From: Symbiodinium sp. CCMP2592
Taxonomy: Eukaryota > Sar > Dinophyceae > Suessiales > Symbiodiniaceae
Assembly (NCBI GenBank): GCA_905221615.1
Contig: CAJNDT010000145.1
Span: 124,001-188,000 of the forward strand
Direction: 5' to 3'
Length of the DNA: 64,000 nucleotides
Shown one piece after another: positions 37,660-59,000 of the stretch (position 1 is its first letter; each line of letters starts with the position of its first letter). The position numbers and the translations under genes were made by a program. The notes beneath the pieces are model-generated. The model did no database searches. It was not told where the DNA came from and saw nothing but the letters and a program-made list of their open reading frames with translations.

Positions 37660-39560
37660 CGAAGGGCTGTTTGACGCTAGCGAGGGTTTTTGGGTAGGGA
37701 CCTGTGGAAAGCTTAGAACCCCGCAGCAACCAAGCCCTTCCACCTTATGAATGCAACCGGCTAATTGTAATGAAAGCTCAGCACTGGCATCTCGCAAGTC
37801 TCACAAATTTGACGGATTCGCTCATCAGCTACACCCGGGCAGCTTTAGAAAACCAGGGGCAGCAGTAACGGCAAATTGTTCACCATGCAGGTGCATCGTA
37901 CTCGCACGCAGAACGAATGACTTTACTTTGTTTTGCTTACTCGGAGCTTAGATCAGATAGCTGCTTGTCTTGTCGCATTCATAGAGCCAGTTTTTGCTCG
38001 CGGGCAATTCCAGCAGAAACTTGCCCACCTTCTGCGTGCATGCACGGCTCTTGATGTTGCATAGCGGGGATGTGCAACATAACGCTGTTCTATTTGTTGC
38101 CACATACATGATGTAATGGTAATGCTGGTCATGTGCTAGTTGGGGCGTAACAGCACATTCCTACATGGAGCGTCTGAGATGTGTGTTTTGCTCAACGTGG
38201 TGTTACCGTAGAAGGTCGCTTGTGTAATGGGTGCATCGAGGACTCTGGTTCTTCATACTTGGGATGTTGCAGTTTAAAGTTGTTGACTTTGTATGCGCAT
38301 ACGGGTGCATGATATGATACCTGCTTTCTTTGATATAAGATTTAAGCGATTGTTTTCTTTGCGGGTGCATCCATGGGTTTGGGTCATGCATGCGAGGGAT
38401 GTTGCAGCATGGTGCTGTTTAGTCACCTGGTTGATTATGGTTGCTTTTTCACAAAACCATTGGGAGATTTCTCTTTTTCTCACTTTGACATTGTGGCAGA
38501 AAGTCTTTGTCTTGATTTGTGTGTCTGCGTCCGAAGAGTCTCTTGCATAACGGGCACAATGCAAAAGTTGTTCGACAACTATATTATGTAGGCGCGCCTA
38601 TCCATACATGATGGAATGCTTGTTGCCGCTCGAATAGACTCGGGTGGTGCACGAGAAATTCTTATGTATGCATATGTAGGAGGACATGCGCTTTGCTCAG
38701 TGTAACATTACAGCAGCAACTATTCTACCTGTTGGCATCGAGACTCGTGTTTCGCTTCTTCGGGTATTGCATCCTTTTCTGTGTTTGCACTGCAGGTAGT
38801 GCTTGTTTCACCACGAAGGAAAGGTACTCCAGGAATCCGGTTCGGCTGATGAATTGCCAAACTTCCTTTCACGGAGAACACCAACGCTGAAGTTAAGCCA
38901 GCTTATCATCCAAACCTGGCCGGAAGGACCTATTTGACAGACCGCGACTTGGCAATCAACTTACAGCAAGACTTGCAGCTGGCCAGGCTCCTACGGCAGG
39001 CCGGGCCTGCGTAGGAGCTGGACAGCCGTGAATGTGCTTCAACGGTTAGCAGAAGATTGAAGCGGAAGCCATCGGCCTTGTCAACTTCTCGCACACATAC
39101 TGCCGCCTGCTGCCAGATGGCGTTGCAAGAAATCCCTGTGCCCATCATGCAGCCGGGGACTTAGCTCGCCCCAGGCTAGCTACTTTGCTCGGGCAGTTCT
39201 GTTCCGAGTCTGCCTCTCTCCCATGTCTGCACGCACATCATCCTAAACAGTCGTAGGTAGCCTCGTTGGGATTCATCTCGGGTTGGTTCGGGATTACTGT
39301 AGTTTCGTTTTCTTCGTTGTGAGCCTTTCGACCTGAGCCATCAGAATTGAAAACCTTCATAGGCCCTATCATAGGCAACCATAGGCAACAAGCCAGAAGA
39401 AGCATTCACGCCATACGTCCCAAATTTTTCAAAGTGCACTCTCGCGCTACTCAGTACTCAGGTTGAGGTTTCATTTTCGACAACCTAGAATTTCATGCCT
39501 GAACGAACCGATAGACGACGACAAGCCTCAGCAGGAGTGATCCTCACAGGCCCTCAAACT
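37660..39560. other. No secure gene; AT-richer block with faint internal repetition
   Basis: 38000-38720 is AT-richer than its surroundings. CTGTTCTATTTGTTGCCACA (38090) and CTATTCTACCTGTTGGCATC (38719), and two ACATACATGATG/CCATACATGATGG pieces, hint at an old duplication about 600 bp apart. Confidence 0.35.
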
Positions 39561-39567
39561 GTGACAG

Positions 39568-39703
39568 TTACGCGGCTGCTGCCATGACGAAGACTATCCT
39601 AATTCACGGAGCCCTGAACCGCAAGACCAAGCCCTTTGAATACGAGATGTTTTGCTCCGAGCTTGTCGAATCCCACACGTACGGCTGTGGTTGCATGTCT
39701 CAG
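39568..39703 (+). CDS. Exon of unknown protein
   Basis: Acceptor CTCAAACTGTGACAG (AG 39566-39567) and donor CAG|GTACAAG. One base is followed by 45 codons: YAAAAMTKTILIHGALNRKT, KPFEYEMFCSELVESHTYGC and GCMSQ. Strong protein character and good codon use. If ATG 39584 is a true start, this could be a first exon. Phase out is 0, matching exon 40058-40099. Unknown family. Confidence 0.5.
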
Positions 39704-39928
39704 GTACAAGAAACGCCGGGACGTGCTTCCTCCCCCGGCTAGGCGCTCGCCAGCGAATTGGGAGTCAAAGATTTGGGTTTTGGGCCGAGCGGCTTCCGGA
39801 TTTTGGGTGTGGGGGCTGTTGATAGGAAAATCCGACAGCGTCAAGTCCTGGGCTTGCCGTTTGTTGCACAGGCGGCTTTCGATACTGGAAAGTCTGTGAT
39901 CGAGGTGTGACTGGGTGCATGGCATGCA

Positions 39929-40010
39929 GGGATGCTGTCCTGGACGGCAGCTCCAAGGGCTTGCAGGGCCGTTGCATTCGAGAGGTGCAGGAGACACGGC
40001 AGATCACGTG
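39929..40010 (+). CDS. Candidate exon with unresolved frame
   Basis: After GGCATGCAG|G one phase reads DAVLDGSSKGLQGRCIREVQ and ETRQITWW with typical codons, and another reads GRQLQGLAGPLHSRGAGD. The donor is unclear. It may belong between the exons at 39568 and 40058. Confidence 0.3.
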
Positions 40011-40057
40011 GTGGATTTGGTGGCATCACCAGCTTACCTTGAACGACTGCCTGTCAG

Positions 40058-40099
40058 CAAACATACATCTGGGAGTATGACGAACCAAGGCCCCCGAAG
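40058..40099 (+). CDS. Candidate 14-codon exon
   Basis: CTGCCTGTCAG acceptor and AAG|GTAGGC donor. Phase-0 reading QTYIWEYDEPRPPK. Aromatic/acidic and protein-like. Could follow exon 39568-39703 directly in phase. Confidence 0.38.
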
Positions 40100-40539
40100 G
40101 TAGGCTCGTACTACACGTACATGCTGATGTTGACTCCAAGCATTCCGCAGCAGGCCCTTGGCCGTCCACCCGTGCCGTGAGCGACGCCTGCTGACCTATT
40201 GAGACCGCTCAAACGGCTAGGAATATCCACTTTGTGGCAAAGTACTGGTAACGATTCCTGGATCCTGAACCATGAGTCTTTCATGAAGCCTTATCCTATG
40301 CTTCTTGATCCGAGATTGCTCGCACGGCCCCCCACATTGTTTGAGAAGCCTTGTGCTCTTGCATATCACAGGCCGACCAACATACCCCTGTCACTTCTAC
40401 GCACGGTACTTCTACACTGAAGATCCCGAGCACCTTCAGTACAGTTTCACCTTCCACAGTTTCACGGAGCTTTCACTGACGAGCTTGGTGCGAAAGTCGC
40501 GCTCAGCAAAGGCACGTTTCTTCCGGATGTTGGCAGTAC

Positions 40540-41115
40540 AAGTATGCAAGTTTATAAGTATGTGTACATGTGCGTCTAGTGTCGAGGTATACGCATGTGT
40601 AGATGCAAGCGTCTCTGCATGCCTCTATGTATCTCTATACACGTATATGTATACATACACATATATGTACATGTGTGTGTATGTGTTGGGTATGCGTTTG
40701 TGCATCTGTCTATGTATGGGTATAAGAACCGCTGTAGGTATAGCTACCCGTGCATGTGTAAATTCCTTCTATGTCGTGTCAGTATGTACATGAACGTGTG
40801 CATGCACGTGTGCATGTACAGGTAAGGTACAGGCATATGTATAGGCATCTGTAAAGGTGCATGTTTGTTCTGTGCTTGTTATGGGTATAGGTAAAAGTGC
40901 CAGCATAGCTGTAATTGTGTATGCATAGGTATATGTTGTTTTGCGTCAATGTAGGTGTATGTGTACTTGTGCTTGTGTCCGTGCCTGTGCATCTGCAGTT
41001 GAATTTGCATCTGAATGTGTCTGTGTATGTGTCTGTGTATGTGTACGCGCATGGGTCGTTGCATTTGCTTGTATGTGTTCTGTATCCGTATCTGCATGCA
41101 TAGGCGTTTAGCTCT
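40540..41115. repeat. Degenerate GTAT/GTGC microsatellite field
   Basis: ATGTGTACATGTGCGT, GTATATGTATACATAC and related pieces for over 500 bp. Open frames on both strands rich in Cys, Val, Met and Tyr (or Thr and His) are artefacts. Confidence 0.8.
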
Positions 41116-41146
41116 GCATGTGTACATAGTACATGCCTGCTTGCAG

Positions 41147-41207
41147 CAGTTCTGCAACATGTATGTAGACGCATCTGAAGTACATGATGCCTTCAGCGAC
41201 TTTACAG
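41147..41207 (+). CDS. Candidate internal exon
   Basis: Acceptor CATGCCTGCTTGCAG and donor ACAG|GTGTGC. Phase-0 reading QFCNMYVDASEVHDAFSDFT plus one base. Good splice sites and composition, immediately after the microsatellite field. Confidence 0.42.
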
Positions 41208-41520
41208 GTGTGCCTGTTGTGCTTTGTCCGCGCAATATGTTGTGTGTGTGGTGGGAGGGTCATGTCAGCGACGTATCATTGCATGACTCTGCGCATCCTC
41301 AGTCTGGCCAGGTTTGGTGGCTTGCCCTTGCAGCTACTGCTGCTTGCGGGTGCGGCGGTGGACCTGACTCGTCCGAGGTGGGTGAGGATACATGACACTT
41401 CTGCAGACATGTCCCGGCAGGGTCACGTTCGCTTTGTGAGCCTCCAGGCCCTGCAGGGCGTGCCCAGAAGGCCAGTGTACCATGCCATGCCTGGGCCAGA
41501 CCTTGAACCCTGAATCTCAC

Positions 41521-41729
41521 AAGCGGTCGAGGGTGGGGAATCCAAATCCTGGGGCCGGATTGCCAGGCTTCCTGCGCTTCGAGCCTCCATATTCGCCCAG
41601 GCCTTGTTGCAGTCCAGACCACCCTCTTGCTGCACATAATCTAGGGTGCTCTCAAGGACTTGGGTCAGATGCTCATCTTCTACCTCAGTCCAGGGAATGC
41701 CTACTTTGCCCCAAATTTGTACGGCCCGC
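41521..41729 (-). CDS. Candidate minus-strand exon
   Basis: Acceptor (minus) GTCATATCTTAG|G at 41730-41731 and donor GTGAGA starting at 41520. One base is followed by RAVQIWGKVGIPWTEVEDEH, LTQVLESTLDYVQQEGGLDC and NKAWANMEARSAGSLAIRPQ. One of the most protein-like readings in the window and against the + trend. Unknown family. The opposite strand frame is poor. Confidence 0.42.
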
Positions 41730-41839
41730 CTAAGATATGACCATGTGCATGTTCCTAAACGCATAAAAGCACCAGCGTACCCATCGGCGCAAACACACAC
41801 ACAGACCCACTCACACGGAATTAGCATATGTACGGTGCA

Positions 41840-42380
41840 AAGTTTGTATGCGTGTATGTATGAATGCAGGTATCTATGCAGGTAAGTATCTATGTATGGT
41901 ATGGTATGGTGTGTCATGGTATGGCATGGCCATGGCATGGCATGGATGGGATCGTATGGTATGGTCTGATATGGTATGCGTGTGTGTATGTGTGCCTGTG
42001 TATATGTATGTTTGCACCTCGGCATGGCTGGATAAGTAAGCAGGTATGTATGTGTGTGTCAGGCATGGATGTACGTAAGAATGTACGAAAGAAAGAGAAC
42101 ATGCTCGTATGTGTGTATGCATGCCCAACTGCGTGTCAATGTACATGTGTGTATTTGCATGCAGGCACATGTGAATGTGTGCAATGCGCGTGTATGTGTT
42201 TGTAGCTACATGCGTCTGCGGGCATGCTCGTGCATGTGCTCATGTGTATGACGCCTGTGTGTATGTGTGTTTGAGTGTATGTTAGTTGTAGTAAGGAGGC
42301 ATGTGTGCGAGTATATGCGGGTATGTATGTACGCTTGCGTGTATGCATGTATGTATGGATGTATGGATGGTCAGACTTTG
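41840..42380. repeat. GTAT/ATGG microsatellite field
   Basis: Includes (GTATG)n, a GGTATGGTATGGTGTGTCAT stretch with CATGG/GGTAT pentamers at 41893-41980, and ATGTGTATGC pieces. Frames across it are artefacts. Confidence 0.85.
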
Positions 42381-42794
42381 TGCTTGCACCTCGAACCAGA
42401 AGCTGCTTGGACTCGGACCTCTGTAGATACCAGCACAAAATCCTTGAGACTCGGCCCTGCTGCCACTCGGCAAATGTTTGCGGTCCTGCAGCCAAGCCTT
42501 TCGTTAGTCTCGACGACAACCGTGCAGACAACGGTGCCAGTCCGAAGTTCGGTCGTATCGCTGTTTCCCGAAAAGTTCTTGCTCCCCATGTTGGAAAGGA
42601 AGATTCCGAAAACCATCGCCAGCAAGGTGCTGTAGACAGCCTTTGAGTTTGGGGGCTTCAAGCACACAGATGCCGAGGCCATTTGTTGACTGGTACTCAG
42701 TCTGGAGAGTGGCATCTGCAAGTTTTGAGGGTATTCGAAAGTAGAGACATGCATCGCTCTCGAAGCAGCTGCCGGAGTTATGAGCCTGTGGCAG

Positions 42795-42923
42795 GCTTTG
42801 CTCTTCGCTTGGCGACTGGCCGGGCCTCGTGGTTGAACTGCTGGCGGCTGAGAGTTACCGTCATCCCCGCGCAGCTGTGCAGAAGCATCGCATACCTTTA
42901 GTCCTTCAATGGTTTCGATTCGC
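42795..42923 (+). CDS. Exon of unknown protein, possibly extending into a poly-Gln tract
   Basis: Acceptor GAGCCTGTGGCAG|G. One base is followed by LCSSLGDWPGLVVELLAAES, YRHPRAAVQKHRIPLVLQWF and RFA. A donor GTCATG is available at 42924. Without splicing, the frame continues through SRSRSRR and a His7/Gln14 tract encoded by (CAG)n to 43278. Strong protein character in the first part. Unknown family. Confidence 0.45.
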
Positions 42924-43027
42924 CGGTCATGCCGACAACAGCCGTAGTCGTAGCCGTCGGGTTACCCTCGTCCTTGTGCGTCCTGCCCCTCCTTGTCGTC
43001 GTCATTGCGATGTCCTTCTTCTTCTTC

Positions 43028-43085
43028 TTCACCACCACCATCACCACCATCAGCGGCAGCAGCGGCAGCGGCTGCAGCAGCCGAT

Positions 43086-43130
<45 letters not shown>

Positions 43131-43150
43131 GAAGCAGCAGAAGCAGCATC
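43028..43150. repeat. (CAC)n and (CAG)n trinucleotide tract
   Basis: CACCACCACCATC followed by about 14 uninterrupted CAG units near 43090-43132. Either coding poly-Gln or intronic. The acceptor at 43184 favours intronic. Confidence 0.85.
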
Positions 43151-43184
43151 ATCATAATTATCATCCGCCCTTTCTTGGTCGTAG

Positions 43185-43609
43185 GTACAGTTTGGGGTCC
43201 CGAAAGCGGGAGGTTGCAGCGCTTATTGGAACCGCCTGGAAACCCTCAAAGCAGGGATTAGGGACTGCAAATGCTTGAGTACTGCTTTGGTTGTCGTGGC
43301 CATCTTGCAAGCAGTACAGCAACACGTTTCTGCATCCCTGTTCCCCGTGGCAGGCCCCGGCTACAAAGCTGTCTGCTCGATCACCGGAAGGCCGTCGACT
43401 TGGAGTCAAGGAGGTGGCAGGCTAAGTTGTAACTTTTTTCTCTTAGACGTAACGTTTTTCCGGCTTACCCCACCTACCCCGCCTACCCCGACTACCCCAC
43501 CTGTTCCACCCCCGACCACAGTAACCCCATCTACCTCTCCTACTCCCGGTACCGGACCTGTCACACCTAAGCCCTCTGCTTTGTTCAACGGACTGCGCTG
43601 GAAGCCTTA
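43185..43609 (+). CDS. Candidate terminal exon with Thr/Pro-rich linker
   Basis: Acceptor GCCCTTTCTTGGTCGTAG|G, then 141 codons in phase 0 to TAG at 43607-43609. It begins VQFGVPKAGGCSAYWNRLET, LKAGIRDCKC, then a hydrophobic STALVVVAILQAV. Later comes an 86-bp run of TP repeats (LTPPTPPTPTTPPVPPP), typical of extracellular or surface linkers, ending KPSALFNGLRWKP. Some of the middle (GRPSTWSQGGGRLSCNFFL) may be intron. If expressed it would suit a secreted or cell-surface protein. Family unknown. Confidence 0.42.
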
Positions 43610-43918
43610 GCTTCAAAAAGACTCCATCCCCTAGTCAAGCTTTTCATCTGAGCCCGGGCTTGGGATCGGCGAAGAGTCTGAAAGAACAAAGTGTATTGCT
43701 CACCTACCCCGAGTAGAGGCTTCTGCCTTTTGACGGGGCCAGTTGAATTAGACTATTGTTGCCAGGGACATGACAACAGGGTAATAGCGAATCCGCGAAG
43801 CCCCTTTCCCATCTGATTCTGTGGACTTCACCCGCTGCGTCGGCTCAAACTGGCCTTGGCGCCATGTGCATCGCGCTGGCTGCTACCCAGCCGCTTCTGC
43901 AGGAGACAAGTGGCGATA

Positions 43919-43961
43919 CGCGCGCCTTGGCTCGTGCGCTTTGCGCCGGCCGGGCTGCTGC
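43919..43961 (+). repeat. Dispersed 45-bp GC element, copy D
   Basis: CGCGCGCCTTGGCTCGTGCG then CTTTGCGCCGGCCGGGCTGC and TGC. Closest to copy A. Confidence 0.7.
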
Positions 43962-44131
43962 GTCACCCATTTTAGGAGGCAGGGGGGGGTCGTGGGTTTT
44001 GGGTTTTAGGGAACGGTAGTTTGTGTGAAGTTTTCTGGATATGTCATTAGAGCCGTTGTGCAGGGTTGGGCCCCTTCCGGGCAAGGGACGCACCAGCCGT
44101 CCATTGCATCGCGGATTTTTCTCTTTTGCAG

Positions 44132-44173
44132 TCGATCTTTCAACTCTCTGCCTTTGCCATGAGATCTTCTCTG
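44132..44173 (+). CDS. Candidate 14-codon exon
   Basis: Excellent acceptor (GCGGATTTTTCTCTTTTGCAG) and donor CTG|GTATTT. Phase 0 reads SIFQLSAFAMRSSL. Another phase reads DLSTLCLCHEIFS. The splice sites are better evidence than the reading. Confidence 0.4.
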
Positions 44174-44235
44174 GTATTTTCCATCCAGAGGCGGCCCTAA
44201 TAATTATCGACTACATGATATTGTACACTGGATAG

Positions 44236-44283
44236 ATGAGAGTCCTCACGGGCAACCCCAAGTCGTTCCCGTACAACCTTAAC
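44236..44283 (+). CDS. Candidate exon
   Basis: After CACTGGATAG, MRVLTGNPKSFPYNLN with consistently G/C-ending codons. No GT donor. AACT|GCTTAC would be a GC donor. It might belong to the ubiquitin-protease gene downstream. Confidence 0.35.
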
Positions 44284-44419
44284 TGCTTACAGATCTCAAA
44301 CATCTGTATATGCCCTATATACTTCTATGCATCCGCGCATAACCCTTATTTTTCCTTGAAAAGAGATTCCTAAGCTATTTGTACACAGCCCATCCCACAT
44401 CTTCCTTGCAAGTCGATAC

Positions 44420-45560
44420 ACTGTGTAGGGTTCAGAGTTTAGGGTTTAATAAGGGTTTCAGGTTCACATTTGAGGTTTTAGGTCTCGAGTTGATGTTGGA
44501 GACGTTTCCAGCTAAGCGATAGAAATTTCCGCACACTTGCAAGGGAATTTAGCTTGATTGCTCTTCCAGTGGAAGGCGGCTCGAAAGAGGATCCATGCGC
44601 CCGTTGGATCCCTGATAGATAGAAGAGCAGTAGAGCCTCAGATCACGGAATTCAATCCCGAAACCCTATGCCGTGCTCCCGAATCCGGCACAAATCATTT
44701 GCTACCCGCTGAACCCGCTTCCCCTAGCAAGTCTTAGACCGTAAAGCCTGCTGGTGTCCAGGGTCCAAGCCATGGATCCCCTATCTGGTTATGGCTTTTC
44801 CAGTCCCATGATTGGGCTTGTGCTGGTCATGAGAGTCCAGAATGGACTCGGCTGTCAGCACTTGCTGATCACATCAATAGTTGAAGTTTCGGAGAATGCC
44901 GAGCTTTCCACTCTTCACCCTACGCTTTAAATCGCTAGTTCTGAACGAGTGATAATTCGAAGCCCTATTCACCAGACCCGAAGCCGCAACTCGTCAACCC
45001 CCACCCACATTCCCCTAATCCCTGAAGGACTTCCGACGCTCTTCCGACGGTGCCTGGGCTTTCAACTTGAATGTGAGGTTTGAGGTTCACTTGGGGTTTA
45101 GGGCTTAGGAGCATGCCCAAAATGAGTATCGGACCCCGTTGTATAGCTCCTTGAAAATCCAAAAGAATCTATGTCATGTTGGGGAGGGGAAGGCTTGGGA
45201 GGGTCTTGGATTGGTTTATAGATGGCGTGGGCCGGCATTGCGCGGTTTAGGCATCCTTTCAGGCTAAACACAGATCGGAATCTGGGACCATGACAATATT
45301 GGTGTTCTGCAGCAGCCCCGAAACCTGAACCCCCTAGGCAACGCGGCTGAGCGTTTCGGATCTTAGGGCCATCAACTATAGTGTTTGAGGTTTAGGGCAC
45401 TATGAGTCCTAAACTCGAAATCCCCAACCCTAAATCCCAAGCCCCGAACCCTAAACCCTGCATCCTAAGCTTTTAGCCCGAAGTCCCAAACCCTCAATGA
45501 ATCCTGAACCCTAAATCCGAAATCCTGGACACGATCTTGTTTGACGCCTCTCCCACAGTC
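44420..45560. repeat. Telomere-like CCCTAAA/TTTAGGG blocks
   Basis: TTTAGGGTTTAATAAGGGTT at 44430, a C-strand cluster at 45395-45530 (CCCCAACCCTAAATCCC, CGAACCCTAAACCCTG), and single variants between. No exon seen. Confidence 0.7.
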
Positions 45561-45682
45561 ATCTCAGGAGTCTGTAGCACATATACGTGCGTGCTCACTG
45601 GCCAAATGCGGAAATCTTAACCTTCGTCCACGACTAGTGGTCGGCAAACTGATAATTTGGCCCACCAGACTGGCAAACCAAG

Positions 45683-45783
45683 GCAACTTTCCTTCTTTGG
45701 CGGAGTCTCTGACGCATACATCAAGAACTTGATGGGAGAAATGACGTACCCCCAACAAGCATCCCAGAGGACTGTGATGATGG
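45683..45783 (+). CDS. Exon, probably of the ubiquitin-protease gene
   Basis: Acceptor CAAACCAAG|G and donor GATGG|GTTTGG. One base is followed by QLSFFGGVSDAYIKNLMGEM, TYPQQASQRTVMM and one trailing base. Strong protein reading. The trailing base completes the first codon of exon 46568 (G+TT), so the two exons are phase-compatible across a 784-nt intron. No catalytic motif falls here, so membership in that gene rests on phase and proximity. Confidence 0.48.
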
Positions 45784-46377
45784 GTTTGGGGTTCCGGCTT
45801 CAGGTATGTACCGAGACCTTGGGTTTAGGGCTGCAGGTTTCGCAGTCATAGTTTAGGACTGCAAGTTTAGGATCTAGGGCTTCGGATTCAGCCCCGGCAT
45901 ATGATCTAATAATATATGGGTTTAGGGTTTACCATGCTTGCACAACAGCCCCCACTACAGGATGTGTTTGTGTTTAGGGTTGAGGCCTTGTCACAAGGTT
46001 TTGTGTTTGGATTCTAGACTTGTCGGGTCTATAGCACGAATATGTACAGCACATGAATGATTTGATTACTGCCAAAAACATTTGCAGAGAAGCATGTGCC
46101 ACGCACAGAATACAGAACTGCATATCACAATGGACAACGATCCCCTGTATACCTACAATCAAATGTAATCCATGAGTACGCAATTCCTGAAGATAAGACA
46201 AGCGGCTAGACAAACAGCCAGGCTCAACGATAGAGGACAACGAGTACATACAGACACAATTATTGAAACAAGAACTAGACAAGTGAGTAAACACATGAGC
46301 ACATAAACGACAGTAACATCAAACAAACAATCAAACACACATAAATATAGATAAATAAATAGGTAAATACATGAATA

Positions 46378-46400
46378 TATATATATATATATATATATGT
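46378..46400. repeat. (TA)n microsatellite
   Basis: (AT)11 within an A/C-rich simple-sequence region (46260-46500, AAACAAACAC type). Confidence 0.9.
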
Positions 46401-46567
46401 CTGTATATACATAGATACAACATGTTTACAAACAACCAACAAGACAAACACGCATAAACAGACAAACAAACAAACCAACACCCAAGAGGACAAAACACAC
46501 ACGGACATGGCCTTTTTGCATTTCGTCACGCCCTGCATGTTTGTGAAGTGACTGCTTTGCTCTGCAG

Positions 46568-47049
46568 TTGAGGCCTTCATTGACGGCTGTGATGACAAGA
46601 CGGTCAAGACGGAAGATGAAGTCGAGATCCAACCGCATCTTGTGGCTTTGTCAGCCATCTGTCTACCGGGGTCGATTTGCCCAGCATTGCAGTTTTTGTT
46701 TAATTCCGGACTGCATCCAGGTATTCGGCAAGTACAGGCTTACGCTCAAAGCAATCGTGTGTCACGTCGGTCCGTCGGCCAGGCGCGTTTTGCTATGAGG
46801 GTTTGAAAACCTTTTCGAGCGCACATCCGTCGCAGGCAAGGGCACTACGTTTGCTACCGGAGTTCTCCTGACGGCCGATGGTGGCACTGCGACGACGAAG
46901 CCGTAACACAATGCCAGGTGGGGCTGGGGTGGAGTCGGGGCAAGGGTCGTTGCAGCAGATGGCTGTGCTGCCAGGATGCGCAAAAGGCTTGCGAGAACTG
47001 CAAGAAAGAAGCATACTTGCTGCAGCCCGGCCGAGGTGGCTTTTCGTAG
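46568..47049 (+). CDS. Ubiquitin-specific protease (USP/UBP family), C-terminal end of catalytic domain, four exons
   Basis: Exons: 46568-46641 (VEAFIDGCDDKTVKTEDEVE, IQPHL), 46721-46782 (VFGKYRLTLKAIVCHVGPSA), 46836-46917 (QGHYVCYRSSPDGRWWHC, DDEAVTQCQ) and 46975-47049 (DAQKACENCKKEAYLLQPGR, GGFS, stop). Phases join at all three introns: 79 nt GT-AG, 53 nt GC-AG (CCAG|GCGCG...GCAG|G) and 57 nt GT-AG. The protein shows the USP His box in full: Y-x-L-x-A-I-V-x-H-x-G, then QGHYVCY with the catalytic His, DGRWWHCDDEAV with the acidic partner, and EAYLL near the end. These cysteine proteases remove ubiquitin from proteins in cytosol or nucleus. The Cys box and upstream domain should lie 5' of 45.6 kb but were not found. 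Confidence 0.8.
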
Positions 47050-47304
47050 ACCAGGAGCAGTTCGCTTTCGGTTGCATCTCAGGTTCTACGCAGTGGAAAG
47101 CCTCCCAGCTTCCTCCACGGCCGGGCGTCTTGCATGCACCGGCAGTCAACCGAAGACCCAAAACAATCCATAAATGCAGAATCACACAGGTTCGCAAGAA
47201 GGGTTCTATGAAGGTGTTTTCGGGTCTCGGGCTTACGGCTTACATGACATGCAAGGTTAGGGCAGAACCTTAACAGTACGATCCTGATTTAAGGGCTGCG
47301 CCAG

Positions 47305-47700
47305 GTGCCGCTAGCCAACCCGGAGCTTTACAGAAAGTTTGAATCCCATCAAGGCCCTCCAAAAGCGCGCATCATGAGCGAATTCGCTGCCGCTGTACTG
47401 TACCATCCAAAAACATGCCCGGACTGCTCCACGGAACGTGCATGTGTATTTCCGTTTCTGCGACGCCGCAGAGGCGCGCAGGGTTTACAGGTCTTCCGTG
47501 GAAAAAGCAACTGCTCGAGGCCTTCTGGGGATTTTGGTGTGGGAGGGGGAAAGGGAGGTTTGCACCTCCGAACCCACGGCAACCCCACGCCCAAACCCAG
47601 AAAAGTTGTTGTTGGGCTCGCCATGGCCCAGGATTCAGGCGAGATCGTGCGGCTTCAGCGCTGCCTGGCATGCAATCGGCTTCAGGTTGCAGCGATTCGG
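47305..47700. other. Open on several frames, probably not coding
   Basis: Frames of 218 and 171 codons start here and run into the 100-bp tandem repeat downstream. The amino-terminal parts (CPDCSTERACVFPFLRRRR and similar) lack consistent coding character. Confidence 0.3.
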
Positions 47701-47714
47701 CTTACATTCGGGGC

Positions 47715-48165
47715 CAGAATGGGGTATTGCAGTTGGTGGTATGATCTGGGTGGGAGTTTTCTTGCGTTATTCTCTGAGTTGGGACTTCAAAGTTTGGCCC
47801 GCTCGGTATTCAGTTTGCTCCAGGCAGGAGTTGTCTGTAGTGCAGGACGATGCAAAATTTGGCCCCTTGCGAATCGCAGTTTTGCCAGAGACATCGCGAC
47901 AGAGCCTGTTTATTTTGGATCTCGGTGGGAGTTTGTTTGTTCTGGGACGCTAAACACTTGACCCCCTTCGCTTTGCAGTCTTGGCAGGGAACACCGCGAC
48001 AGCGCCCATTGTTCGATCTCGGTGGGAGTTTGCCTGTAATTCGGGAGATGCCGAAAATTTGAACCTTTTCGTTTGGTATGGGAGTTTGTTAGTGGTTTGG
48101 GACGCTGAACAGTTTGCACCCTTTCGTATTTCATGGGACTTACTGTGTGGTTTGGAAGCTCAGGG
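47715..48165 (+). repeat. Degenerate 100-bp tandem repeat, four to five units
   Basis: Units start GACGATGCAAAATTTGGCCC (47846), GACGCTAAACACTTGACCCC (47946), GAGATGCCGAAAATTTGAAC (48045, shortened to 56 bp) and GACGCTGAACAGTTTGCACC (48101). Each full unit ends GATCTCGGTGGGAGTTTG plus about 12 bases. A diverged copy precedes them (47735-47845). The unit contains GCGACAG and CGGTGGGAG landmarks. Confidence 0.75.
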
Positions 48166-48349
48166 TGTTGGTTTCGGGTTGATGGCACATTATAGTGCAT
48201 AAAAAGGCTCAGATCCTTAGATAACTGCCAATGCTACTTCGAAGGCTCCTCATTGCAATGACAGTATAGTATCGTAGTTACACACCAAAGCCTGTTTCAA
48301 TTATTAATTATCGCCTTCATAGGTTCTTGGCTTATTTTGGACCCCACTC

Positions 48350-48700
48350 TTGACTCCAGATCCAAACCCCCGAAACCCAAAGGCTCAAAAGGCTGGGAGC
48401 GGGGGTGGGCTTACTGTTTTAATTAGGTTTGCAGGGGTTTGGGGTGGTGTTGGGTGGCTTGAATTCTATAGGGTCTTGAAGGATTAAAGAGTTTTTGGAG
48501 CAGGGGTTTCGGGATTGTGCTCCAAGACCTGAAACCATTGGAACAGGAGGTGTTGCAAACTTGCAACCAGCAGCCGCGCTTTCTAAGCTTTCAAAACGCC
48601 AGTCAATTCTGAAGAGGCCCTAAACCCCGAAAGCCCCCAGCAGGCAAACCCAAAAACACAAAGAAAACCCAAACCTGAACTCCCCAAGCCCCAAAACCCC
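48350..48700. repeat. Telomere-like heptamers
   Basis: CCCGAAACCCAAAGG, GGGTTTGGGGTGG and CCCTAAACCCCGAAAGC in both orientations, just upstream of the first IQ exon. Confidence 0.6.
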
Positions 48701-48728
48701 GTGCGCTCCCTTCTGCCCTCTTCTCGAG

Positions 48729-50053
48729 GCGGCTCGCATCATCCAGCGTCACACCCGCGGCTTCCTAGTGCGAGTGGCCATCCGAAGGCCCCTACTGTTG
48801 TTGCAAGTATACTTTTAGTTTCTATCAGTAATAGTTACTTGTACATAAATAAATAAATATAAAAAAATAAAAAAAAATATATATATATATATATATACAC
48901 GCGCTCCGCGGCCCTCCGCTCCCCCTCTCCATGGTCTATGGTCCAGGATGCCCTCCCTCCTGTGGGATGGAGTGTGGGTACCCTCTTCCCCCTGTGGGGT
49001 GGTTGTGGGAGTTTTGGGTCAAGCTTAAGCTTTTGAGTTGTGGGTTTAGGGTTTGGGTTAAAAGGTATAAGGCTTCGAGTCCACAAGGGCTTAGGGAGGG
49101 TTTGGAGTGTAGGTTCGCTAGGGTTGACAGTTTATGTTCTGGTTTAGGCTTAGAGCCTGCATTTAGGCGGGGTTTAGGGTTTGAAGTTTAGGTTAAGATC
49201 AGCAGAAGCAGGAGCAGGCGCTACTGTGCTACGTTATAGGATTTATGGCTTGCGTAGGGCTTGCGTACGATGTTGGCCGCCTGGCCGTCCCTCCAGCTGT
49301 AGCTCCAACGGCCCCCACCCCTCTCCGCACGCGCCAGGCCCCCCCACCCCCGACCCCGTACCAGACCATACCATTCGGGGGGGGGGGGGGGGCTGGGAAC
49401 GCCAGACGCCTGACCATATATATATATATATATATGTCTACATGTGTGTATCCAACACCCATTCTTGTCGTTAAGTCCCCTATCCTATATGGCGGTCCCT
49501 GCTTTGTTGCGGTTGTTCAGCATACTTCACGCTTATCTAGTTTTGAGTGGTTGTCGACATGATGCATCATTTTGGATACCCTAAACACTAGGTGCCATAT
49601 CATACTAAAGACACAGATTTTTTTCCACAACCACCCATTAACCCTAAACCCTAAACCTCTACAGAACTCCTGAGATCCTACATGTCCTCATGTGCTTCAA
49701 ATCAGTAGGATCTTGGGCAAGGGCGAGGTCCTCTCTGACACAGTCACTTTACGCGTTTCGACTCAGCTGTTTTGATTCATCCTATGATCGGCCCTTTAGC
49801 GTGTTTCACATTGTCAGACTCCGAACCATATGCCTCGCCTGGATTGTCCGAGTGTGAGCGCCGAAACCTCTACAGACCTTGCGGGCTTTGCTGACTGTGA
49901 GAGTCAACAAAGACTCCAAACCTCAATATAACCCCTATAAACCCACAACCCCAAACCCAACAACCCATGTTATGGATTTTCGCGAGGCATCAGGCTGCTG
50001 TGGTGATCCAGGCTTCCACGGCCTTTTCGGGCGGCCGAAGAATGAGATTCGGA
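48729..50053 (+). CDS. IQ exons 1 and 2, joined through a GC-AG intron
   Basis: Exon 48729-48787 follows TTCTGCCCTCTTCTCGAG|G and reads [19 protein letters not shown] plus AG. The donor is GC (CGAAG|GCCCCT). Exon 49987-50053 follows GGATTTTCGCGAG|G. Its first base completes AGG, and it reads [20 protein letters not shown] and FG. The two IQ cores, [11 protein letters not shown] and [11 protein letters not shown], are then 22 residues apart, the spacing expected of tandem IQ motifs. This is independent support for the inferred splice. Confidence 0.65.
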
Positions 50054-53000
50054 GTTCTTTTTTTGGGTTCTAGGGTTTAGAACTTAGGGCGTCGGTGCTC
50101 GGAGGTTCAGAGTTAAACCCTTATTTGCGGGGTCTTGAAATCAATCCTTCTAGACGTCGAGGGTTGAGGCTTGGGGGTTTCAAGCCTATAAGTTCAGCCC
50201 TTTCATCAATCCCTTATCCGAACCAGACAGACAAAAACTTGTCTAATCCGATGCTAAAATACCGGGCATTACCTAAATGAAGACATCTCTAGAGGCTGAA
50301 ACTCGAGATTCTGCACGCTTCGGCACGAGACCTGCGCTTTTTGGGAAAGGCCCTTCCAGGCTCTAAGCCCTGAGCCCGGAACGCTGCGGTAAAGCACAGC
50401 CTTTTTTTTGGAGTTGCGGGGTGGAGGATGCTGAGGGCAGAGACTCAGCAATCGGTCCCCCAAGCCCCAAAATTTGGGGTCTGGCCTGAGGGTCTAAAAT
50501 TGCGATATTGCGGGCTTTTGACAACGTAAAGCACTGGTCGGTTCAGGGCCTCCGGGACGATCTGTTGGGGATTTGGTGTTTGGGCCCTGCAAGTATGATG
50601 CTCCAGCCCTCGAGGCCTCCTATGTCCAAGACAAGGGATGCGATCCCATAGCAACAGACAGAAACTAGTAGCAAACCCTAAACCCTAAAGCGAGATGCGG
50701 AGGGGGAAAAAAAAATAGGAGGGAAAAAAAAGCGAGATGCGAGAGCGTAAACCCTAAACCCCTAACCCTAAACCCAAATCTCGTTCTGTTTGGTTTTGAC
50801 AACCACCCAAATGGAGACTTTCCTGCAACCCTGAGGCGAAACCCGAACTCCCCAAACCCCATTTTCGAAAGGCCAGCATGGCATACCATAGAAGCCTAAG
50901 AACTTTCCAAGGGCATTCCTTCTGGTCCGTTGTGGCTCCTTATTCTAGCCGTACTACCATGTACCGCCAAACCCTGTTCGAGCTATGGACTGAAACCGAC
51001 TGCTGCATCCGGAAGTCTGAGCTCCTAAAGCCCTTAAGAAGGTCGAAGACCTTCTTCTGCTGTGCAACGCTCTAGAGTTTAGGACTTAGGGCTGAGGCCT
51101 TAGGATTCAAATTTGGGGGTTTAGGGTTTAGGATTTCGGGTCGAGCGTTTCTAGTCTTTCGAATGTAGACACTATGCCAGAAATAGGTTGCAAAGGACCC
51201 TGTCCAGCAACACCAGAAGGCGAGCCCGATAGGAAAATCTCGCGAACGTCGTTTGCCCACATCCCATCAACAATTAACAGCCCTATGAAACAACCCCTCA
51301 AAAGCATGCCAACACCCTGTAAACTCCATCCACAACCGCGCTCAGCGCTGTGCTCGTGGCTTTCTCGCACGACGCAACCTGCGCCAGGCGCCTTCGGCCT
51401 TCGGTGTTGTTCGTCGGGTGTCTCTGGGTATGGGGTTTTCCAGATGCATAGTCATGCGGCAGGACTTTACTGCGCGTGCACAGAAGGGTGTTATAGCTTG
51501 ATTAAGCAGCACAGGGTGTTTGGGTAAGTCGCGGTAGAATGATATCGGGATTCTGAGAAAAATGCTGTGACAAATTATTCGGGCCATGGTTAGCTTCTTA
51601 CAAGGGTTTGAGATGTTTGTTTTATATATGGTTTGGGCTCGAGGGTTCTGTGGTGTTTTTTTTGAGATCCCAGCTCCAAGCTCGAAACAGGTTACCACAC
51701 CCTATTTCTTCGTAGTGTCCGAATACAAACCCTAAGCCAATAAAGCTCTAAACCTTGAGCGGGACATGAGGCTCGGAGTATGGGTTCTATAAAGATTCTA
51801 TGCGGCCTACTTAGAAGATCGTGGGATTCAGTCAAGACGGTTAAAAACAAAACATACTTTTGCTTATATATATATATATACATATGTGCATAATAATGTA
51901 TACATGCATATACACTTATTATGTAAGTTGTCTGTACGTATGAATACTGGTCGCCCGATTCCAGGACCTGCGGCCCTACATGCAACACATTGACAGAATC
52001 CTAAACCGTACTGCCCCCTTAAACTCACACCAACAAACCAAAAGCCCTCAACCCCAAACCCCAGACAGTATGGGTTGAGGCTTAGGGGTTTAGACTTAAA
52101 GGTTTAGGTTATAAGCCTTAAACCTTAAAGCACAAGACTCGTCCAGGCCGTCGATGCAGCCGTCCGGGGACCTGGCCAGAAGTTGCTCAAGATCTTGGGG
52201 TGTTCTTACTCGAGATCCCTATTCAGGTATTTCGGGTCATGGGGCTTGGAGTTTTTTTGGGGTCAAGGCCCTCTTGCTTTCAAGAGCGTTATCGGGCATG
52301 AAGACCCCACACCTCCCTACCCTAAAGCCTGCTATATACATGCAGGCTTTTTAAAAATTACAGTCTGCAGCGACGACGGTTGCTTTGAAGAAGCGTGGTG
52401 AGAGACTAAGGTTTACGACTTAAAGTTCCGGGTCCAGCATGGTCCCCGATTTAGCGTCTAGGTACGGCTAAGAAATGCCCTATACTACGTATATATGTCT
52501 GCTAGATTCCTAGGTCATATTGCCAAAATAGATGTGTATATATAAATATGTATGTATATTCATAACGGCGTAGAACAGAATAGTATACATTATACTTCAC
52601 TACAGTATAAAGTCTGTTATATACTAGCTTAAACATCAGACTTTATGTTTGGGAGATGTTGAGTCAGCATCCGAATGCCATGCGGTTCCATGAAGCTTCA
52701 ACCCTGAACCAAACGACGGACAAAAGGTTTTACAAGGAGGGGTCTGCCTTTTATCCCTTCCTGGGGTTGGTGTCCATGTTGTAATCCCATCGGCATGAAG
52801 CCTGACACTTTGCAGCAGTTAGGCCACGATGCATGGCCCACTTTCAGGACCATGACGCAAGAGACCCCGAATGTTCAGCAACCTCTGCATGGGTTCGGTG
52901 TCGGTAAAACCGACACAGCCTGGAGACCGAAGCCTAATCTTTCGAACAGCCTTACAACCTGTTACAAGAATGCGGTAACCGCACCTCAGCTGTATTCACT

Positions 53001-56000
53001 TGCAGTACCTTTATCCCTAAACCCGTAGAATCTCGGGCACTGTTTCAGCCGCGCAATCTCCCCGTACGATATTGCATATTGATGTTTCGGGGCCCTGGGG
53101 CATATGCTAGATAGGTGTATAGGATTGATAACGGGGAAAGCATTATGGACTACGTGTTCAGTCCTCTACGTTTATCCATGCCTAAAATCCTGGGCAAGAT
53201 ACGCATTCAACGTGTCGCGCGGGCGAACATGGCCAAGGTGGAGGTCGAGGCAGTCTGGGTTTCGGGCTTGGGGTTGAGAAGCCTTGGGTTTTGGATTTGG
53301 AAAAGTGGGTGCTTCCTGTCTGCGAATCGAATCGGACTTACAGTTGGGGTTTGAGGATTTTTAGGCTTCGTGTTTGGGGTCGGGGGCTTAGGGATTTGCC
53401 GTGCGCGAAGTGGGGTACTCAGTACCCGCAGATCGAAGCAAGCATTTAGGACCCATCATAACGATATCGCCAGAATCCGAAACCCTGAACCGTAAGAACT
53501 TCCATCCCAAGCGATCTTCCGCAACACGCTAAAACAACCTTTAATTGAGGCTCAGCTCAATGTCTTCACCCGATACTCTATAAGCCCTACGCCGCACACG
53601 CCAAAGTTTCCACACAGGGGCTGAACCCCCACATCTTAGGCCATAAAAAGCCTTCCTTCACTGGGCCTCGAAGGTGCGCCGGAGGCTCATCCATCGCGCT
53701 GCGTGTGTCATCCGTGCCCAGATCCGTGGCTCCACAGCACAACATCCGAGAGCCCTAAACGCTTTGGGGTTTTGGGGGCCCGAAAAACCCTGAACCTAAA
53801 GCGGCTGGGGCGTAGGGCTTCATGAGGGGTTCAGTGTCCTATAGGACTTCGAAATTGGGCCTGGCGCTTCACAGGCCTTTCATCTAAATCAGGGGTTTCG
53901 CGCGAAAGAAGGCATCGTCTTCGACGCTTGAGGGGCAGGGGAGTTTGGGGGTTCTGGGGCTGTGGGTTAAGAGTTCCGAGCTTGAGGGCTTAGGGTGTAC
54001 GGTGCTGAGGGTTTAACAGGCACGGGTGTAGGGTTGAAGGGACTGCAGGCGAACATGCAGGGCGATAAAGTATTTCGGATGATGTCGTCGCTGACTTCCC
54101 ACTGAGCACAAGCCGAACCATAACTGACGTTTGAAGCCATCGGCAAAAACAAATGTGAGAGAAAGGCTTGTGAAGAGAACTAAGTATGTCCCCCAGCCAA
54201 AAGCCCCCAAGTTAAGTTGGAAAGTACAAGTACAAAGTCAAGCAATCAAACCAAAGCCCACCTCTGCCTGAATCTGTCTGTGAGTTTGGAACCCGTTCAT
54301 GCAACCCAGCAGGTTACGAACCGAGCCTCTGAGAGCATGGACTCTGAGCTTGAGACCCCAAAATGTGAATTCCCGAAACCCTCGTCCCTAAACAACCCTC
54401 CGCCGTAAACCCTTAAACCCAAGCGAACCCCTAAATGCTGCGGGGCGAGACAGCCGGAACCCTACCGGCAGGATCATGGGACTGAGTGATCGTAAGTAAG
54501 GTTCTGAGTATCCTGATTTGGGATGTTTTGTGAAACAGACACGTCTGCAGGAGCAGGGCAAAAATGTTGATGGCGAGCGGAGCCGGTGTACCGCGAGCCC
54601 TCCTTTTCTTCTTCCTGGTGCCCGCCTATTTGCCGGTGCCCTACCTTGCGCAGCCTGTGACACCTCCCTTTCGTGATGACTTCGGGGGCATGCCTAGATG
54701 TGGACAGGTATGGAGTGCGTCGCTGCTCATCCTCAGGCCCGTCCTGTGCAACTGGCGGCATGGCTTGATGGACCCGGCGACGAGTCCCCTATTGCGCACC
54801 CGGACGGTGCCTGCCATCCCGGCCTTCTTGAGGCTTTGCTTGCGCTTGAGGTAGCTGATGATGAATCCGTTTGGGCCCAGCATGGCCCAGCCCTTTGCTG
54901 ACATGCTGCAGCCAACATGCTCCATCTTCCGGACCCATCCGTTTGCTGCGACCAGCCAGTATCAGCAGCCTCGTTCGGCTTCTGGACCCGTGGACTTCAG
55001 TACTGCCGTGGCTTCCCTGCCTGGGTTGGTTTTGCCCTTCGTCCTTACAGGCACTGCGGCAATCCTGGTCTTCGAAACACCGCCGTTGCCCGGCTACGTG
55101 TACCCCATTGACGGCAGTGCGCCATTGGCGCAGACACAAAGGCGCATTGCACGTGCGAGGTTGTTCCTGCTGCAGTCCAGCAAGCCTCATGTGGACCTGT
55201 GCTTCTCCGGGCATCGGGCGCTGCTTTGAGGTGTCTTGAGCCGCTCACATCATGGCTCGTGTCAGGGGGCTTTCTTCGCACTTCCGACGGTCTTGCCTTG
55301 CCGCATGACTGATCGGCGACTGTTTCACCCTTTGAATTTGTTTGCCAGAGGCGCGTCGGACAAGAAGAAGATGGTTACCTTATCTATAGCCCTATAGTTT
55401 ATAGTTATTAAGTCCCTTGACTATTCACTAACCCTGACGAGTAGGCTCCTGGATCTGCCGGCGGGATCTCAGCGAGCTTCGGGTGCATGCGGATCGCAAG
55501 GAGGAGCCCAAGGGCGGAGAAACTTTCAGGGTCTACAGGGTTTACGGTTGAGGGGTTTCAGGGTTTAGAACAAGCTTGAGGGCGGACCCGGTAGAGGCGC
55601 TGCAGACCGGATGCAAAAAGAAGTCTTAGGCAGGGTTTGGGGATTAGGGTTTTAGGGCTAAGGTGTCAGGTTTGATTAGGGGGCTTGGAGCTTTCAGGGT
55701 TTTGATTTTGTACTGGGAGTTCCCCTCATCAAAAGGCTGATGTAATTCTTGGGGTATCCAAAAAGGCACTTCATTCGAAAGAATCGGATTCCGTGCATAA
55801 TCGTCTGTGCTTCTCTTCTCTCCGTGTGTGTGTGTGTGTGTCTGTCTGTGTGTGTGTGTGTGTGTCTGTGTGTGTGTGTGTCTGCGTGTGTCTGTGTCTC
55901 TGTGTGTGTGTGTATGGGTGTGTCTGTGTGTGTCTGTGTGTCTGTCTGTGTGTGTGTGTGTGTGTCTGTGTGTGTCTCTGTCTCTGTGTGTGTGTGTGTG

Positions 56001-59000
56001 TCTGCGTGTGTCTGTGCGTGTTTGTGTGTGTGTGTGTGTGTCTGTGTTTGTGCTTGTCAGACATACCATGTGATCCGCTTTGTGCAAAGGGGATGTTGAA
56101 GTTATTTGTGGTTAGATGTGCCCTAGATGTTGGCTTGCTTATGCCTATTGGTAACACCGCTTACTGGATCCACAAATCCTCCAGATAACCCGAGACCCTA
56201 AACCCTAGAAGCAATCCTGTTTACTAAGTCCTCTGATTGCCCAAGCATGCTGGATAGCGTCGGAGGTCCAGTGAGGTGCTTTTGGCTTTTTGGCTAAGGG
56301 TACGATTTGAGCGTCAGTACAAGAATGCCGTGCTACGTTTCGCACAAGACACAGCAAGACCCTTATTGGAGATGCGAGTCTTTCTGGGCCTTGGTATGGA
56401 GATCTGGAGGAAGCGTATCAGTACTCCGTTGACGTCACTGCGAATTCACTGTACAGAATACCTGGAATCCCTACCCCAACTAGAATCCTTATTATACGAC
56501 CCTACGAAACCCACCAAACCACCACAGGTCCCCGTCAATCCCTACCCTTGGCCACCAGTTCTTAAGGGCCTAGTGGGTTTAGGTGTTTGGGCTTCGTAAC
56601 CCTAAACTCCGTAAGCCCGCAACCCTCCGAAAACCCGACACCGATTAAAAGCACGGCAGGCGGTGGAGAATGCAGCTCTCAAGATCCAGAGCACCTTTCG
56701 CGGTTGCGGGGATGCCCAGCCCAGCCACCGCTGTTTAGGGTTGAGTGCTGAACTCCTCAACCCTCAACCCGAAATCCTAATCCTTCCACCCGAAATCCTG
56801 TTACGTAGATCCTGAAGCCTAAACTCTTTAGCCTTGCAGTGGTGTTGGCGTTTAGGCCTGATCAACCCTGATAAACCCTATACAACACATATATGCATAG
56901 ATAATATACATATATAGAGAATCCCATCAAATAAAACCCTATAGACACTTAAACCCGAAAGCTTACGTGGAATTCCCAATCAAGCGAGGGGGGCCACAGC
57001 AGCAGCTTCTTTTGAGTCCTTGCCTCGTATATATGCCCCCTCAAAATACTCGACGTGCTCCAATCCCCGAGCCCCCAAAACACTACCCTAACCTAACAGC
57101 ACCGAGGCCCTGAACCCGAAAAAACACCTGATCACAAGTCAGTAGAGAAACCCTGTAAATCCACATCATCTATAGGTTTGGTTTGCTGTAGAGGCTTACA
57201 GGAGTCCAGTGTAAATCTAGGTCCTCTAGGTTACCTTAAACCCGTACCCCAAACCCCAAGCCTTAAGTCCCAAACCCCACCCCAACAAACCCTAAACCCC
57301 AAAGCCCTAAACGCCCTTAAACCCTTTGGACCTCGGAGGCCGCGGGCGGAAGACTCATCGAAAGCTTAGGCCGGGAGCCTCCTAAATGAACGGGCTAATG
57401 TGGCGGGGGACCTGAAGAGAGCTTGGGTTTCGGGTTCAGGAATCAGGATTCAAATTTCGGGTTTAGAGAATCAGAGTAAGGATTGAGGTTCAGTGTGTTG
57501 AGGCAGGATTGCGGGATTTAAGTAAGTAAGGGTTCAAGCATATGTCCAATGTGCACCAATGCTGCACCAACACCTGTCTTTAAGGCCTTTACACTCCATT
57601 CAACCCGAGCGTATACATGGAGGATCATCGGACTCAGTAACTATGGTTATAAACAAGGTAGCTATAGTTCTAAATATGTACAACTCCAATGACGGGGTTA
57701 TATAGATCCCTCATCGCTGCCCTCAAAAAGCCCCGCAAAGGCCCCGACAGTTCACCCTGCGAGGACGGAGCATGACCTCATCTTCAACTCCGCCGCGAAG
57801 CTCCAGGCAGACTCAATGAAGTTTGGGGTCCCGTTTAGGGTCCCTTGGAGGGTCAACCCTTTAAGGGTTCTATAAGGCAATGTCAAACCCCAAACCCAAA
57901 ACCCGAAAAAACCCTTACTTGTGATTCCTGAGAGTCCCTGACTAGCAGTCCTTGTACTTTGAAATACACCAAGAATCAAAACCTAAACCCCAAGGGACCG
58001 TAGTGGGCACTGTTTATTCATCCTCAGGGGTTTCTTACAACAAGTATGCCAGGAGATGTATTTGCCCGGAAAAATGTTTTTTTTTCTTTGGGTGGTTTTG
58101 GGGTTTATGTGGTTTAGGGCTTTGGGCCGGAATAGTTGGTACATGTTGGTACTGTTCTTCCCTTGGAGTTCTTTGTTACAAGTATACTACCATAACCCAA
58201 AAATCCGTTCAAAGTGTTGAAGGGCCGTCTGGCAGGGTTGATAATAGGGGCGTTGTTCCAGGACGCTTCTACCCCAAATGCCCTGAAGACTCTGCTACTT
58301 CTAGCCCATGTTACTGGAACTGCTCATTTGCTACATAGGTAGTTGGTGGTTGCCAAACATGGTCCTTTTTGCCGAAAATTTGTGGCTCGATATTGATGCT
58401 CATCACAGTTCACAGAACTGGGGCTTCAGGGGGTTTAAGGTTTATCTGTTAGGGTTCACGGAGGTCGCCTCTTTCGGCTTTAGGGTTACTCTTTGGGGCT
58501 TGTTAGGGTCTAATTACTGCGCTGACGGTTGAGGGCTCAGGAGTTGAGGGTGTTGAGGTTTAGGGTCTGAGGGTGTATACGGTTCAAGGTTTGTGTTCGC
58601 TGTGCGCTTGTTTTTGGATGTGTGCCTGCTGCAAACAGGTTGCATAGAATCGCAGAAGAAGAGCTCAGCCTAGAGCCGCAAGTTCCCTACATGAAAAGCC
58701 CTACAGCCTAATCAACAAAAAGAGCAAGGCCGGCATCCTTCACGCTAACGAACAACTGACTCAAAACCCTAAAGCCATGGACCCTGAACCCTCAATGAAA
58801 CTTGGCACGTTACCTCCTGGACCCCAACACACAAAGTTCGAAGCCTTGCAGCTAAACCCTAAGCCCTATATAATCCGAAGTAATTATATCACACACCCCC
58901 AAGACCCTACTTAGATTTTCTAGGCCCCTAAATAGCCCCTTCAGCAGCTGTCGCCCCCAACGATACTGAACGATATGCCATGATATATTTTCGTAGTCAA

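Follow-up and report, generated by a model that had tools for sequence, protein, structure and literature searches.

Does the plus strand of this locus carry a gene in which IQ motifs are completed only by splicing, and if so, what distinguishes the pieces of such a motif from chance resemblance? The window, which is the whole stretch of 64,000 nucleotides that was analysed, corresponds to C145:124001-188000 in an assembly of 1.098 Gb and 5,383 contigs. Two short segments of it, here called exons F and G, each encode part of one IQ motif. Our reading, to which we assign a probability of about 0.85, is that F and G are coding exons of a plus-strand multi-IQ gene and that removal of the 633-nt GC-AG intron between them restores a full IQ motif. 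The features concerned are as follows.

56660..56705, plus strand: exon F, first part of the split IQ motif, entered in phase 0 and left in phase 1
56706..57338, plus strand: GC-AG intron of 633 nt, lying inside IQ codon 8
57339..57376, plus strand: exon G, second part of the split IQ motif, with a GC donor at 57377

The first half-motif lies in frame at 56672-56704, and the second is in phase from 57341, after the AG at 57337-57338. The initial annotation had placed the two parts of the core at 56652-56702 and 57339-57369; its central idea, a motif restored by splicing, is retained here, whereas the boundaries of F are redrawn. Exon F starts at 56660 and not at 56652, because conservation with a paralogue on contig C1399 begins at the acceptor AG (56658), and it probably ends at the GC donor after 56705. 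Exon G ends either at 57376 or at the 57369 chosen earlier, a GC following both. The peptide first printed for this junction, IQSTFRGGRGRK, is not what those earlier coordinates produce, a shared glycine having been counted twice. Joined at 56705/57339, the spliced peptide contains the IQ-x3-RG-x3-R core and forms a full IQ motif, matching positions 2-21 of the 21 in the Pfam IQ profile (PF00612; curated cut-off of 20.3 bits) with a score of 22.2 bits.

On profile and phase alone, the F/G pair would be doubtful. It had been argued that a chance match would not be expected to place the second half-motif exactly in phase downstream of the first. This argument fails: when the letters of the 700 bp downstream were shuffled 500 times, an AG|G partner completing RG-x3-[RK] in phase was available in 54% of cases, and with the GT fragment described below the stricter RG-x3-[RK][RK] was available in 8.6%. 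Spliced and unspliced scores were calculated with a profile of IQ preferences against a background of 40 dinucleotide shuffles of 48001-66000, whose maxima were 13.1 (unspliced) and 14.4 (spliced). With its GC donor, F+G scores 14.6, which barely exceeds the spliced maximum, and 57339 ranks first of the 109 acceptors in range. The top-scoring partner overall is acceptor 58440 combined with a GT donor (16.5); it outscores 57339 but was rejected, no conservation being found for it among the C1399 matches listed. Within 48500-58000, all eight IQ pattern matches lie on the plus strand, and a profile scan of the reverse strand of 48001-66000 gave a maximum of 11.9 unspliced and no spliced match of 12 or more. 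One loose pattern match occurs on the minus strand at 52950.

The non-chance status of the F/G pair follows instead from the pattern of substitutions relative to C1399. A DNA search of the genome returned a match to exon F on this contig, and comparison of the two contigs added exon G, 16.6 kb further on. The counterpart of F (C1399:13351-13396) differs by three substitutions and that of G (C1399:30027-30064) by six, all of them synonymous. Taken together, the 84 nt of F and G (46 + 38) show 9 synonymous and 0 nonsynonymous changes, the numbers of sites available being 21.7 and 62.3, respectively, a pattern with a chance of about 5e-6 if change is assumed to be equal at all sites. The acceptors of both exons are intact in C1399; in the 150-bp stretches that flank the exons directly, identity is 40-60%, and the alignment next to F is heavily gapped. 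When the frame was fixed beforehand from the initial reading, permutation gave a P value of 0.035 for F (over 43 nt) and one of 0.00085 for G; with all six frames admitted, the values were 0.18 and 0.005, and one antisense frame of F is likewise without amino-acid change. At the level of sequence comparison, these results show coding constraint on F and G, a constraint that rests on one diverged copy, the tandem copy described below being identical and so uninformative in this respect. A protein search of the genome with the F+G peptide in its GT form matched only C145, twice, and C1399, once.

The strongest alternative concerns the donor of exon F. A GT after 56702 and the GC after 56705 are both in phase with G and both conserved in C1399, the GT being intact in both paralogues. 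Use of the GT would yield IQSTFRGRGRK, one residue shorter and with K at its end instead of RK. This product reaches only 17.1 bits against Pfam IQ and covers positions 2-13, that is, the first half of the profile; in our own scoring it falls to 13.8, and 57339 drops to third of the 109 acceptors. The GT donor moreover strands 18 conserved nucleotides in the intron, against 15 for the GC donor. From these sequence features, the GC donor is to be preferred by a clear margin, and use of the GT donor appears unlikely, while remaining the most serious of the competing readings. GC donors are common in Symbiodiniaceae, where GC/GA-AG introns are put at 25-74% in PMC11453091.

The 15 nt that follow the GC donor (56706-56720) are identical in C1399:13397-13411, though the adjacent flanks are 40-60% identical, and neither donor choice accounts for them; they may act as a signal within the intron or reflect another end of the exon. 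In a further reading, F extends to a GC donor after 56718 (..FRGCGDA), with F and G belonging to separate isoforms or connected through an unseen micro-exon. In its favour, only three differences, all synonymous, separate F plus its extension from C1399 as far as 56720. Such an extended exon, however, leaves 2 nt where G needs 1, which makes a direct join impossible, and the donor after 56718 was accordingly discarded as a partner of exon G on grounds of phase. The F-G interval contains no conserved block among the C1399 matches listed, and the extended form is without the RG-x3-R ending. We consider this reading improbable, and retain F ending at 56705.

Two blocks upstream of F, 56074-56147 (85%) and 56225-56278 (91%), also align to C1399:12675-12982, without a clear common reading frame, and conservation near F is therefore not all exonic. 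These blocks may be an exon lying upstream or an element without coding function. A specific candidate, 56225-56258 with a GAG|GT donor in phase with F, is not counted among the exons: 56225-56278 carries 5 differences in 54 nt, of which even the best frames translate 2 into amino-acid changes, and the acceptor of the candidate is off by one base between the copies.

Exons F and G recur past the window, at C145:188360-188405 and 189062-189099, where 46 of 46 and 38 of 38 positions are identical. If G ends at 57376, F+G constitutes an 84-nt module that encodes a 28-residue repeat and has phase 0 at both ends. Between the tandem copies (C145:188227 onward), identity amounts to 98.8% for 56527-56862 and 97.2% for 57147-57502, the second of these tracts ending at a large gap. 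These high-identity tracts are roughly centred on the exons, and the middle of the intron between them is 60.4% identical. The alignments show tandem duplication of the F+G module, at least once. Recent gene conversion within an older duplication would explain the exon-centred tracts, assembly polishing being a lesser possibility. The downstream F/G copy may belong to the same gene, which would then continue past the window.

This comparison also bears on the extent of the gene as first drawn, namely four phase-matched exons within 56312..57827 and a micro-exon gene spanning 48.7-60.1 kb. The middle two of the four exons, corresponding to F and G, stand; the outer two are abandoned. For the first (from 56312), the C1399 homologue has frame-breaking insertions of 2 nt and 11 nt plus a long gap, and homology with the tandem copy begins only at 56521. 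The fourth (to 57827) aligns to the tandem copy at 79.5% identity across a gap of 12 columns, no better than its flanks (78.7% and 77.8%); neither stretch shows constraint. A real small-exon gene with a splice-made IQ motif is likewise upheld, with the exception of its 3' end at 60.1 kb, since a copy of F and G lies past the window.

Upstream of F, the locus contains further exons and candidate exons.

48729..48787, plus strand: exon A, a complete IQ motif (Pfam IQ, 21.9 bits), ending in phase 2 at an AG|GC donor
49987..50011, plus strand: exon B, first half of the second IQ motif (..HQAAVVIQ), entered in phase 2 and left in phase 0, GC donor at 50012
51346..51387, plus strand: exon C, second half of the second IQ motif, GC donor at 51388
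53199..53237, plus strand: candidate exon D, GT donor, unspliced profile score of 14.5 (at most 13.1 in 40 shuffles), without a Pfam match
53674..53728, plus strand: candidate exon E, GC donor, from sequence reading, without a Pfam match alone

Exon A has an unspliced profile score of 22.8, compared with at most 13.1 in 40 shuffles. The second IQ motif (49987-51387) is another split IQ, cut directly after its IQ. Spliced, B+C scores 16.7 against a shuffle maximum of 14.4 (n=40), with exon C ranked first of 120 acceptors and the runner-up at 4.7, and reaches 29.9 bits against Pfam IQ when the frame is continued beyond exon C. When A, B and C are joined by removal of a phase-2 and a phase-0 intron, both GC-AG, the product carries two IQ motifs (39.3 bits in two stretches). 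D is a weaker candidate and E weaker than D. Searches found no exons joining E to F and none after G, and the assignment of A-E and F-G to a single gene is presumptive. Exons A-E have no homologue among the C1399 matches listed, and a protein search of the genome with the B+C peptide returned the self match only. In IMG/VR, where records near this genome may be left out, 48 pattern matches to A+B+C yielded 0 confirmed relatives. A genome-wide PF00612 search returned nothing in this genome and nothing in 14 controls either, and therefore carries no information.

C1399 carries IQ-like exons of its own, all on the same strand as the counterparts of F and G.

C1399, from 41472: IQ-like exon h, loosely typed peptide of 12.1 bits, below the IQ cut-off
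C1399:44035-44076: IQ-like exon i, 14.9 bits when joined to j, below the IQ cut-off
C1399:47276-47303: IQ-like exon j, scored joined to i (14.9 bits)
C1399:49728-49790: IQ-like exon k, 25.6 bits alone, above the IQ cut-off

Exon j is organised like exon B (one base, few codons, AAxxIQ, GC donor). Loose IQ patterns also match the minus strand of C1399, and exon h alone is weak evidence.

Several of these observations would be expected of a pseudogene, the relic of a formerly functional IQ gene: the DNA of the claimed fourth exon drifts freely, the tandem copy is absent upstream of 56521, and linking exons were not found. Against such decay, F and G are intact at three sites and show solely synonymous change relative to C1399, while A, B and C splice in phase, and we judge a relic to be about as improbable as the extended form of F. 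Chance resemblance without any gene is scarcely credible: a half-motif with free choice of partner comes cheaply, as the 54% of shuffles attests, but the 9:0 ratio of synonymous to nonsynonymous change against C1399 and the scores of A, D and B+C above the maxima of 40 shuffles are at odds with it. A functional multi-IQ gene containing F and G is thus the reading that we carry forward.

The surroundings of the exons are marked by telomere-like words. Over the 210 nt upstream, C-type (CCCTAAA-like) words exceed G-type (TTTAGGG-like) words in all seven exons A-G, and over 400 nt in five of the seven; compared with random positions, the combined flank statistic gives post hoc P values of 0.0024 and 0.011, respectively. 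Upstream of exons h-k of C1399, the edges of which are approximate, C-type words are in excess in 4 of 4 cases at 210 nt (combined P of 0.037) and in 3 of 4 at 400 nt (combined P of 0.27). Downstream of the IQ exons, the corresponding rule for G-type words holds in part only. As a general splicing rule, telomere-like flanks were ruled out on 25 myosin exons, which upstream gave 8 cases for, 15 against and 2 ties, and downstream 9 for, 9 against and 7 ties; the pattern is at most a feature of the IQ gene family. It is conceivable, at very long odds, that telomere-derived arms mark the micro-exons, C-type before and often G-type after each IQ exon, and that the two ends of an intron, being complementary, pair, so that weak GC donors are drawn close to the matching acceptors with the participation of the conserved intron starts. 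A segment of about 2.2 kb on C1399 (27751-30000), directly upstream of the exon G homologue, is dense in C-type telomere-like words.

The genomic setting bears out the dinoflagellate origin that had been proposed for this DNA: the 21-mer of the dinoflagellate spliced leader has 429 exact matches in the genome, against 0 for a reversed control. A spliced-leader relic near 56279 was considered and rejected, since the agreement there, 14 of 21 bases, is also reached at other positions. The GC content of 52% together with the CCCTAAA/TTTAGGG telomere-like debris would fit Symbiodiniaceae, TTTAGGG being the telomere repeat of dinoflagellates in the excerpts of PMC7023079 and PMC11508785.

Upstream of the IQ gene, 46834-47022 on the plus strand matches Pfam UCH (ubiquitin protease) with an E value of 0.0032 and 17.5 bits, below the cut-off of 23.9. 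The best sequence relatives of this stretch are solved ubiquitin hydrolases, weakly matched (E of 0.034 and above), and reading by eye gives a final exon of a ubiquitin-protease-like gene with its TAG end at about 47050. The segment 46834-47050 looks like the C-terminal part of a plus-strand ubiquitin-specific protease gene. Because that gene apparently ends at ~47.05 kb, the IQ gene probably starts after 47.1 kb, and its 5' end plausibly lies not far before 48.7 kb. Other elements were noted in and around the window. Between exons E and F, at 54560-55230, reading by eye reveals two long coding-looking open stretches, which could be an intronless insert or a retrogene. The interval 57601-57705 is a dispersed repeat with at least 40 matches on other contigs, and C145:118194-123533, just upstream of the window, is a large tandem array of units of roughly 320 bp that are about 67-88% alike.

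With its two IQ motifs, A+B+C resembles the multi-IQ arrays of Pfam PF00612, such as the myosin V neck and FAP305 (7n6g). A point of difference is that introns here interrupt the motif at two distinct positions. Among solved relatives of the B+C peptide, FAP305 is the best (E of 2.7e-05), followed by PRDM9 (5v3g; E of 0.00035), for which no single stretch passes alone, and myosin Va (E of 0.043). F+G in its GT form has no convincing relative among solved structures, the best matches being a designed repeat (E of 0.13) and the sperm protein Sp17 (E of 0.21), which has a sequence stretch in common with it. Beside the array, the frames scanned gave only the UCH match and a chance-level match to TMEM51; neither a myosin head nor a CH domain nor any further domain was found. 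ASPM-type spindle proteins likewise combine many IQ repeats in one protein and have a CH domain upstream of the array. A Pfam search for CH in the three plus frames of window positions 39001-48602 and 48502-57503 and of C145:188001-197902 gave no match; micro-exons are invisible to such scans and could hide a CH domain.

Introns that split IQ motifs have a precedent in the plant IQD genes. As excerpted, PMC1368998 describes a phase-0 intron at codons 9/10 of the first IQ motif, invariant with few exceptions, and an IQ67 domain of three IQ motifs with spacers of 11 and 15 residues. The A-B spacer of the present gene, 11 residues, equals that between IQ67 motifs 1 and 2, whereas its splits fall in codon 8 (phase 1, F/G) and after codon 2 (phase 0, B/C); the second spacer of 15 residues is not seen, and the third motif is uncertain. 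Because the split positions differ from the codons 9/10 given in that excerpt, this is not an IQD gene. For a Symbiodiniaceae genome, the corresponding excerpt of PMC5177918 reports a mean exon of 109.5 bp and, for S. microadriaticum, a mean of 21.8 exons per gene, GC, GT and GA donors and a GC value of 50.5%. The present gene resembles those so described in its many small exons and GC/GA-AG introns, and differs in exon size (25-59 nt against the 109.5-bp mean). Among the papers listed, no title points to micro-exon IQ genes of dinoflagellates.

IQ motifs are established as holders of calmodulin or light chains. Once transcribed and spliced, as we presume it and its remaining exons to be, the gene would give a protein in which successive IQ motifs line a long basic helix, a complete motif of 11 residues arising on excision of the intron that interrupts its codon 8. 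Each IQ repeat could hold calmodulin or a related EF-hand or light-chain-like protein. By analogy with known IQ motifs, calmodulin binding by the predicted protein is somewhat favoured, and the protein is most probably a calmodulin-binding IQ-array protein of an ordinary kind. Copying of F+G would add 28 residues without a frame shift and lengthen the array, and the frame-neutral, duplicated module indeed resembles an array growing by copies of intron-split modules.

The gene looks fairly ordinary for dinoflagellates, though unusually finely cut, and introns splitting IQ motifs are already known. What it illustrates is that a motif invisible in unspliced DNA can yet be recovered in a dinoflagellate genome through the substitution pattern of a paralogue, the missing element being the GC donors. 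Annotation that assumes GT-AG introns and normal exon sizes would overlook such genes.
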